This document shows positions 60,736 to 64,000 of a DNA stretch of 64,000 bases, in pieces. The DNA is taken from positions 62,001-126,000 of the forward strand of contig CANPYY010000001.1 in assembly GCA_947588675.1 (NCBI GenBank). The letters run 5' to 3'. The position numbers were made by a program, and so were the translations under genes. The stretch's first letter is position 1. Every line of letters starts with the position of its first letter. Source of the stretch: an uncultured Lachnospiraceae bacterium. Its GTDB lineage: Bacteria > Bacillota > Clostridia > Lachnospirales > Lachnospiraceae. The notes below the pieces were generated by a model, which was not told where the DNA came from, searched no databases, and saw only the letters and a program-made list of their open reading frames with translations.

Positions 60736-63700
60736 ATGAAAAATCGTTCAAAACGCAACTATATAATAACTGCATTTCTGGCTTTAATAATTATTGTTAC
60801 TCTTGCGCTTAATATCTTTATCATGTATAAACTGACTTCAGAGCAGACTGAACAGATGGGAAGAATGAGAATCGAACTCGTCGCATCTGACCTTCAGAAA
60901 CGCCTTACCGAAAGTTCAGCTTCACTGGACCGCGCAGGCGCAAAACTTGAAAATCTGTTTTCCGATATTGACTCTTACGGATATACCGGCGACGGCAACA
61001 ATGCAATAAAAGACTTTCTTTCATCTGAAAAGAAAAGCATAATAGCCTCGTCCGGAAGGACCTGCCTCAATATGTTCTGCATAACGCGTAAAGGCGACGT
61101 TCTCATATCTGACATGGAAACGCCGCAGGACTATGTCGTTCAGGACAGAATATGGTACAAAGGCCTTATGGATATTCCAACCGGGGATACATATATCAGT
61201 TCAATATATCAGGACGCCTTTACCAATGATATGTGCTTTACGATTTCAAAAATATTATCTGACGGCGAGTCAATAATCGGTATAGACTATTCCATGTCAG
61301 AAATACAGTCCTATATAGAAAAAATGAATGCATCCAGTTATGGCGAAGCGATGATAGTAAACCGCGACGGTATTATCGTAGGCTTTTCTGACACAAGCTT
61401 AATAGGCGAAAGGCTGTCCGAACATCCCGATATATTTAACAACTATAATAACGCATATATACAGGCCAACTATAACGACGCCGACAGCACACATATAAAA
61501 ACATCCGAAGGCACCGTATTTTGTTCCAGAACAGAAAACGACTGGTATATTATGCTTTCCATCGGAAACTGGTCCCTCCATAAAAACAGTTACAGACAGC
61601 TTATTATAAGTTCCATAACGCTCATACTTATAGTACTTATAATATCCATGCTTTTAATTATAGGAATCAAGGAAAGATACCGCGCAGAAAACGCCCTGAA
61701 AGCGAAAGAAGAATTTTTATCCGGTCTTTCCGGCAAATTCCACAATCCGCTTCACAAAATATCCGAACTTGTATCGTCGGAACCTTTTAAAAACGAAAAC
61801 CTTCGGGATATATCTGACAGTATACATAATGAAATATCACAGCTTTCCGATATGATGGATAACCTTTTCAGCTATTCCAGCATAATGACTACGAACATAG
61901 AAGAAAAGAGCAGCCGCAAATCTTTACACATGACAACAAAAACACAGCACAAATTCAGATTCTGGATAGTAATAACATTTTTAATTACAATGCTGTTTAC
62001 CATATTTATATCTTCATCACTGCACCTCAGATGGGCAAAAGTCAAAATGACGGAAGAAGCTAACAAATACAGCTATCAGATATCCAGCTGGGTACTGGAG
62101 CAGAAAAACATACTCGAAATGTTTACTAATTATACCGAAAACGGTTACGCCTTTCTTGCCGATAAGGACGGTCAGATAATAAATCATCCGAACACCGCTT
62201 ATCAGGCGTATGACGGCAAATTTGTAAACATCAAAAACCTTGCATATAACAAAATTTATAAAAACCCCCGCGGGGAAATACATGCAATTAAAGACTATGA
62301 CGGTAAAATACGCGAATGCCTTATTATAAATGACAATGTTTCCAACTTCAATATAGTAGTAATGAAAGATATATGGAGCATGTATGGCGACGTATTGAGA
62401 TATATAATTATATATTTCGGTTTATTCAGCATATGTATTATAGGGGCAATCACTCTTATAAATAAGATGATACTGTGGCAGAAAGAAGCAAACGACAATC
62501 TCCGTCAGGCTGCCAAAGCCGCAAACGCAGCAGACAAGGCAAAATCCCTTTTCCTTGCCCAGATGAGCCATGAAATCAGAACCCCTATCAACGCAGTGCT
62601 GGGAATGAATGAAATGATTCTCCGCGAGAACAAATCTCCTGAAATAAAAGAATATTCCGAAAACATTAAAAGTTCAGGCAATACGCTCTTATCTTTAATA
62701 AATGACATTCTGGACTTTTCAAAAATAGAAAGCGGAAAAATGGAAATTTTCCCGGTCAAATATGACACAGTATCCGTTATAAACGACCTCGTAAATATGA
62801 TAAGCATCCGTGCTTCCAAGAAAGGTCTTGAGTTTCTTATTGAAATAGATGAAGATATACCGGCAGCCCTGTATGGCGACGACATAAGAATACGTCAGAT
62901 TATAACCAATCTTCTGACAAACGCCGTCAAATACACTGACCGCGGCTCCATACATCTGTCAATACAATCTACAAGATTAAATGCCGAACAGATAATGCTT
63001 CATGTAAAGGTTTCCGATACCGGAATAGGAATACGGGATGAAGATATACATAAGCTTTTTTCCTCTTTCCAGCGCATAGATGAACAACGCAACCGTTCTA
63101 TTGAAGGTACGGGTCTTGGAATACCCATAACCCACAATCTGCTTATAATGATGGGTTCAAAACTAAACGTTTCCAGTACATACGGCAAAGGTTCTACCTT
63201 CAGCTTTGATTTGGTACAGGGCATAAAATCATCAGATACTATAGGCGACTTTTCTTCACGCCGCATACAAAGCCTTGAAGATGCGGAAACAAAATATATA
63301 TACGCCCCTGAAGCCGACGTACTTATTGTAGACGACAACGCAATGAACCTGAAAGTGGCATCAAACCTTTTAAAGCGCAACGGCTTTGTTCCCGACACAG
63401 CTTTAAGCGGTCAAAAATGTATAGAAATGGTTCTTGCAAAACATTACGACATAATTTTCATGGACCACATGATGCCGGGAATGGATGGTATAGAAACACT
63501 AAACAACCTCATAGAGTCACATATTCTGCCCGGCGACACAGCCGTTGTAGCCATGACTGCAAACGCCGTGTCCGGCGCAAAAGAAATCTATTTAAGCCAG
63601 GGCTTTTCCGCATATTTAAGCAAACCTATAGTTATAAAGCAGCTTGAAGCCGTACTTGAAAAATATCTGCCGGCGGATAAAGTTTCCTATAAGGATATTG

Positions 63701-64000
63701 AAATTGCAGACAAACAGCCCGAACCTGTAAAAGAAGACAAAGCAGAGCCCGCAAGCCCCGATGATAATTCTTTTTGTGGCAGATTCAGTTTCCTGGATAC
63801 ATCAACCGGACTTTCTTACTGTGATAATGATGAAGAATTATATCTGGAAATAATAAAAACATATTTTGAAAATTCAAAACTGGATGCGCTTATTAAGTAT
63901 TTTGATGATGAAGATTGGAATAATTACCATATCCTTATACACTCATTAAAATCCACATCGCTTTCCATAGGCGCAACATCCCTTTCAGAACAGGCCAAAG
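60736..64000 (+). CDS. Hybrid sensor histidine kinase (dCache-like sensor, degenerate HisKA, second sensor, HisKA-HATPase, REC, start of HPt), 3' truncated by window edge
   Basis: Manual translation from ATG at 60736 (AAGGAG RBS) is open to the window end, hence missing from the ORF track. AQMSHEIRTPINAVLGM, RQIITNLLTNAVKYTD, VSDTGIGI, EGTGLGIPI, LIVDDNAMN...DIIFMDHMMPGMDG, and IHSLKSTSLSIGA. Confidence 0.92.
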   Translation, partial: MKNRSKRNYIITAFLALIIIVTLALNIFIMYKLTSEQTEQMGRMRIELVASDLQKRLTESSASLDRAGAKLENLFSDIDSYGYTGDGNNAIKDFLSSEKKSIIASSGRTCLNMFCITRKGDVLISDMETPQDYVVQDRIWYKGLMDIPTGDTYISSIYQDAFTNDMCFTISKILSDGESIIGIDYSMSEIQSYIEKMNASSYGEAMIVNRDGIIVGFSDTSLIGERLSEHPDIFNNYNNAYIQANYNDADSTHIKTSEGTVFCSRTENDWYIMLSIGNWSLHKNSYRQLIISSITLILIVLIISMLLIIGIKERYRAENALKAKEEFLSGLSGKFHNPLHKISELVSSEPFKNENLRDISDSIHNEISQLSDMMDNLFSYSSIMTTNIEEKSSRKSLHMTTKTQHKFRFWIVITFLITMLFTIFISSSLHLRWAKVKMTEEANKYSYQISSWVLEQKNILEMFTNYTENGYAFLADKDGQIINHPNTAYQAYDGKFVNIKNLAYNKIYKNPRGEIHAIKDYDGKIRECLIINDNVSNFNIVVMKDIWSMYGDVLRYIIIYFGLFSICIIGAITLINKMILWQKEANDNLRQAAKAANAADKAKSLFLAQMSHEIRTPINAVLGMNEMILRENKSPEIKEYSENIKSSGNTLLSLINDILDFSKIESGKMEIFPVKYDTVSVINDLVNMISIRASKKGLEFLIEIDEDIPAALYGDDIRIRQIITNLLTNAVKYTDRGSIHLSIQSTRLNAEQIMLHVKVSDTGIGIRDEDIHKLFSSFQRIDEQRNRSIEGTGLGIPITHNLLIMMGSKLNVSSTYGKGSTFSFDLVQGIKSSDTIGDFSSRRIQSLEDAETKYIYAPEADVLIVDDNAMNLKVASNLLKRNGFVPDTALSGQKCIEMVLAKHYDIIFMDHMMPGMDGIETLNNLIESHILPGDTAVVAMTANAVSGAKEIYLSQGFSAYLSKPIVIKQLEAVLEKYLPADKVSYKDIEIADKQPEPVKEDKAEPASPDDNSFCGRFSFLDTSTGLSYCDNDEELYLEIIKTYFENSKLDALIKYFDDEDWNNYHILIHSLKSTSLSIGATSLSEQAK

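Follow-up and report, generated by a model that had tools for sequence, protein, structure and literature searches.

dCache hybrid histidine kinases follow the order dCache-TM-HisKA-HATPase-REC-HPt. Besides such kinases, several pseudo-histidine kinases have been studied. DivL has a Tyr in place of the phospho-acceptor His, and both DivL and RetS are separate proteins with an ATPase-like domain of their own, which act on a partner kinase. According to the literature, DivL is a pseudo-histidine kinase that works as a separate protein on its partner kinase (PMC4211667), and a variant of ChrS is also found among the pseudo-histidine kinases (PMC9491836). For the dCache domain itself, amino-acid sensors of the dCache_1AA type are known, and in PctA the amino-acid pocket consists of Y121, R126, W128, Y129, Y144 and D173 (PMC10104139). 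The kinase analysed here is built from modules that are individually known; for their order, sensor-TM-dead DHp-TM-sensor-TM-kinase, no description was found in a search of the open-access literature.

Gene and domain layout

The window is a stretch of 64,000 nucleotides from an uncultured Lachnospiraceae bacterium (contig CANPYY010000001.1, positions 62,001 to 126,000), whose assembly comprises 2.37 Mb in 92 contigs. At its right edge, a reading frame on the + strand runs uninterrupted from 60706 up to the edge itself. The first-pass annotation had placed the start of the gene at 60736, which is right, as an AAGGAG ribosome-binding site precedes this ATG; the ortholog in G006 is colinear with the window protein from the same Met onwards. 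The peptide that it had quoted is exact, and the gene is missing from the ORF track, as it had remarked, probably because it runs off the window end. Read from the contig, the complete gene extends from 60736 to 64122, 122 bases beyond the window end (L002:2706-6122). Downstream and convergent, just past the window end (L002:6240-8906), lie an ORF with a C-terminal part that resembles, by eye, a LytTR DNA-binding domain, and an SBP_bac_3-HisKA-HATPase-REC hybrid kinase identified with Pfam.

The protein reads, in order, as a dCache sensor, a TM, a degenerate HisKA, a TM, a second, truncated dCache, a TM and an intact HisKA-HATPase-REC-HPt (Table 1), with four hydrophobic TM segments between the units according to hydropathy. 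Pfam on the whole protein recovers dCache_1, HisKA, HATPase, REC and a weak HPt, the last of which is slightly short of the Pfam curated cutoff. Intact HisKA, HATPase and REC were all found with their catalytic residues and, by these catalytic motifs, the C-terminal unit is an intact hybrid kinase. The earlier reading of a His-less, degenerate HisKA between two membrane sensor units and ahead of an intact hybrid kinase is therefore borne out, and the arrangement recurs in relatives.

Table 1. Features of the two-sensor kinase gene in window coordinates. Residues (protein P0001) are numbered from 60706, so that the start Met is Met11.
Feature	Position	Strand	Basis
Gene truncated at the window edge (1128 aa in full, start Met at 60736)	60736-64000	+	
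TM1	60763-60819	+	Hydropathy
dCache sensor 1 (Pfam dCache_1, residues 78-250)	60937-61455	+	Pfam E 1.5e-10 (N-terminal half); PctA alignment; family conservation
TM2	61612-61668	+	Hydropathy
Pseudo-HisKA (DHp-like) helical hairpin, residues 333-393, without HATPase after it	61702-61884	+	Pfam, profiles, model
Gly343 codon, replacing the phospho-acceptor His; H-box Pro348 retained	61732-61734	+	
TM3	61966-62022	+	Hydropathy
Truncated dCache sensor 2 (N-terminal helix and membrane-proximal half)	62044-62361	+	Alignment with G006 and G001 orthologs
TM4	62404-62460	+	Hydropathy
Active HisKA (MSHEIRTP, His622)	62539-62736	+	Best Pfam match at 612-677; whole-protein E 2e-25
HATPase_c (residues 724-836), including the N-box, G1 and G2	62875-63213	+	Pfam E 7.6e-24; motifs
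Receiver domain, Asp920 (REC, residues 872-984)	63319-63657	+	Pfam E 1.7e-21
HPt, His1079 at 63940 (residues 1059-1107); extends past the window end	63880-64000	+	Pfam E 5e-5

The first HisKA and its conservation

An HMM check at the site of the first HisKA, as proposed in the first-pass annotation, gave a match when Pfam HisKA was run on the fragment (E 9.9e-5, covering 1-63 of the 66 profile positions), with a score of 22.8 bits that is below the gathering score of 26.9. Scored with a profile built from the active HisKA of the family, the window hairpin obtains 15.9 bits, a value that 0 of 2000 shuffled family hairpins reach (best 10.4). A profile of the 27 family hairpin segments matches the active HisKA over 73 columns with 97% probability (E 2e-11) and retrieves the solved DHp domains of ERS1, CpxA, DivL, RetS and HK853. 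Pfam HisKA itself matches the hairpin at E<0.01 in 18 of the 27 members, the best at 5.6e-9. By this profile evidence, the degenerate HisKA is a genuine HisKA relative; a chance resemblance is ruled out by the profile-profile match, the solved DHp matches and the shuffles. The structure prediction suggested earlier agrees: the window protein and the relative L073, each modelled by AF2 as a monomer, show a long helix, a turn and a second helix in the stretch from TM2 to TM3 (in the window model, helices 278-348 and 354-386 by its own numbering). The pLDDT there is moderate, about 53-71, and about equal to that of the active HisKA. Where the phospho-acceptor His would stand, Gly343 is found instead, and no HATPase follows: TM3 begins about 25 residues on, and the sole HATPase match is that of the C-terminal kinase.

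The family set used for comparison holds 28 members, some of them incomplete at contig ends, and 27 have the hairpin. The His is lost in 26 of the 27 and retained in one relative, L164; the replacements are Gly (8), Glu (5), Asp (4), Ser (4), Asn (2), Ala, Ile and Leu (1 each). Because the phospho-acceptor is absent, the domain is classed as a pseudo-HisKA and not as a functional HisKA. The hairpin Pro is retained in all 27, and all 28 members have an intact active H-box further downstream. As to whether the change from His to Gly is conserved, which had been raised at first reading, the loss of His is conserved but Gly itself is not. The ortholog in G006, a genome of the same genus (70% identity), has an Asp at this position, and the ortholog in G001 a Ser.

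On a tree built without those columns, the His position changed at least 14 times. The mean pairwise identity is 0.32 for the hairpin, 0.35 for dCache1 and 0.20-0.22 for the linker or TM3, and the hydrophobic core positions of the hairpin are retained across the family while its surface positions vary. The hairpin dN/dS is 0.10-0.18 in close pairs with unsaturated dS, dS being near saturation in the pairs compared. Since the changes at the His position go together with a hairpin identity near that of sensor 1 and a low dN/dS, this position is, as far as these comparisons tell, a site freed from constraint within a domain that is still constrained. The suggestion that the first HisKA persists as a fold whose phospho-acceptor role is gone agrees with these counts.

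The same data bear on the main rival to a coupling role, a passive connector, in which the hairpin only serves to tether the extra sensor and to lead the chain back to the membrane, carrying no signal of its own. Free drift at the His position and the variable surface positions would be expected of such a tether, and the hairpin is wholly lost in the G031 lineage (L069:4932-8828/L165, L167), where both sensors are retained, while the other members have kept it. However, the DHp core and the Pro are retained over very divergent proteins, and the constraint on protein change in close pairs is also more than a tether needs, so that we regard this explanation as unlikely. Because of the G031 lineage, a relay through the hairpin would not be obligatory everywhere. 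The G031 paralogs, two in one genome, carry a charged linker of about 25-35 residues in its place.

The layout was found in 19 of the 397 sampled family genomes (about 5%) with a TM2-hairpin-TM3 profile, counting those matches that reach across the linker or the TM3 side of it; as scoring covered 8 candidates per genome, this may be an undercount. A scan of named genomes yielded further cases in MAGs of Lachnospiraceae and in others labelled Oscillospiraceae, Ruminococcaceae and Ruminiclostridium, many of rumen or gut origin. Given this recurrence, the layout is no one-off mutation but a real receptor design that is still uncharacterised. A private mutation or pseudogene was ruled out as an account of the hairpin by its family-wide degenerate state, and an assembly artefact by the same layout in independent genomes. 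In one relative (L162:3811-8556), the open frame starts with a DegV domain before the two-sensor kinase, which is either a fusion or a sequence error.

Sensors and origin of the two units

In sensor 1, the pocket residues are Y143, R148, W150, Y151, Y168, D170 and D194 (61132-61287). According to the PctA alignment, all of them except the additional D170 are equivalents of the PctA pocket, and across the 28 family members they are kept, in the same order, in 27 (Y/F), 26, 27, 26, 27, 27 and 28. Sensor 1 would thus probably bind an amino acid-like ligand. In relatives, both dCache domains are complete and carry pocket residues of the amino-acid type; in their sensor 2, the R, W, Y, Y, D and D are largely kept and the first aromatic residue is mostly Trp. 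A fold search with the L073 model gave Cache sensors and chemoreceptor models as top matches, and for the whole layout it gave no match. If this ligand class, which we infer from the pocket, is correct, a group of kinases from the gut and rumen is predicted to have amino-acid-type ligands.

The window copy differs in its second sensor. About 125 residues, i.e. the ligand-binding distal half with all pocket residues, are missing in frame, with the junction near 62128 and a 3-base AAT match in the junction DNA; a misassembly might in principle have produced this gap. A dCache_1 requires both PAS-like halves, of which the distal one is absent here. The truncation is private to the window copy, as all 27 other members of the family have the motif residues. 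The second sensor region reported in the first-pass annotation is therefore present, but its shortness is atypical and reflects a deletion from a full dCache. Because sensor 2 has lost its ligand-binding half, the window copy should respond mainly via sensor 1.

This truncation might also be a sign of decay, the gene of the window genome heading for loss with a degenerate HisKA and a shortened sensor. In a genome of the same genus, the gene is reduced by deletion to its first ~115 codons (L035:2835-3200, G007:C10), and this remnant is flanked by the same two neighbours, a hydrolase of the MBL fold and a hybrid kinase resembling the SBP_bac_3 one of the window. Having been lost in this close relative, the gene is dispensable. 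However, the degenerate HisKA is old and family-wide, the frame is intact across 1128 codons and every active-site motif is present, which makes decay quite improbable.

With regard to origin, an internal tandem duplication of a single sensor-kinase front end had been proposed at first reading, and units 1 and 2 indeed align end to end with 99.7% probability. Nevertheless, the two units form separate groups in trees of the sensor region, which are quick trees with sparse sampling of single-sensor proteins. The neighbours of unit 1 are single-sensor hybrid kinases (L161:905-3649, L183, L217 and others), whereas those of unit 2 are chemoreceptor sensors (L212, L213, L218, L219, L224), all with MCPsignal. 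Forcing the two units to be sisters is 74 log units worse (p-AU 0.0003), and with the long branches removed the constraint still costs 71 log units (AU p 0.007). Duplication is rejected by the sensor tree and these AU tests, and we consider it very improbable; because the units group apart and the AU test rejects them as sisters, a chimeric origin by fusion is favoured.

Proposed coupling and comparison with known systems

The best explanation, which we hold to be probable, is a fused two-sensor hybrid histidine kinase in which the His-less pseudo-DHp couples sensor 1 to the kinase, one output integrating two inputs. One dCache hybrid kinase would have contributed its front end (dCache-TM-HisKA), now without HATPase and REC, which was joined to a second kinase of the type dCache-TM-HisKA-HATPase-REC-HPt. 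The HisKA of this front end would survive as a pseudo-DHp, lacking the phospho-acceptor and keeping the antiparallel helical hairpin, which probably pairs with the partner chain in the dimer. Since the topology of a DHp is one helix down and one helix back, a HisKA can precede another membrane crossing, and the up-and-back hairpin would bring the chain back to the membrane for TM3, sensor 2, TM4 and the real kinase. For the direction of coupling, we infer a path from sensor 1 via TM2, the pseudo-DHp and TM3 to sensor 2/TM4 and the active DHp, and the net effect would be a single kinase output combining the two inputs.

Another possibility might be that the pseudo-DHp is a decoy or regulator, binding the HATPase of the active kinase and, in response to sensor 1, keeping it either away from the real DHp or on it. 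The hairpin is DHp-like, it and the real DHp adjoin one and the same face of the membrane, and DivL and RetS, among the DHp domains retrieved by its profile, regulate other kinases. However, of the H-box surface in contact with the catalytic domain, no residue other than the Pro is kept, and this role is improbable.

If in-line coupling through the hairpin is correct, the family may represent, as a tentative proposal, a receptor class not described before, which occurs in many genera of the bacterial family and has a dead DHp hairpin between membrane helices as an in-line coupler for the serial integration of two extracellular signals. As the dead HisKA is often below the cut-offs of domain databases, domain diagrams of these proteins may show a gap that nothing explains. 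The family also offers natural experiments on whether a signal can pass through a DHp bundle without catalysis: the His was replaced many times, the hairpin was deleted in one lineage and sensor 2 was truncated in the window copy.

A relative that is 62% identical to the window protein has a REC-HD_GYP fused at its C-terminus (L149:3241-8139), and the nearest match in the window's genome is a REC-HD_GYP-GGDEF protein (G000:C7, L230:1765-3834). Based on these two proteins, there are hints of cyclic-di-GMP turnover as a candidate output, to be taken only as a lead. A second kind of stacked-input kinase was also seen: three hybrid kinases (L188:403-3900, L215:535-4131, L216:1-3648) have a mostly hydrophobic, multi-TM module of ~310 residues before the dCache, which has no convincing Pfam match, with a weak, sub-threshold DUF3810 in L215 only.

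Compared to the dCache hybrid histidine kinases, the C-terminal part of the window protein is identical in layout, with all catalytic motifs present, and the protein adds dCache-TM-pseudo-HisKA-TM ahead of it, so that it has four TMs and two sensors. With the pseudo-histidine kinases DivL and RetS, the window hairpin shares a DHp fold in which the phospho-acceptor role is lost or changed; in contrast to these, it has no ATPase domain, belongs to the same chain as the kinase and lies between two sensors. Finally, the sensors of the family match those of the dCache_1AA type (PctA, Mlp24, CtaA) in fold and in PctA-equivalent pocket residues, whereas here the dCache is part of a kinase, occurs twice in tandem and, in sensor 2, mostly has a Trp instead of a Tyr as the first aromatic residue.
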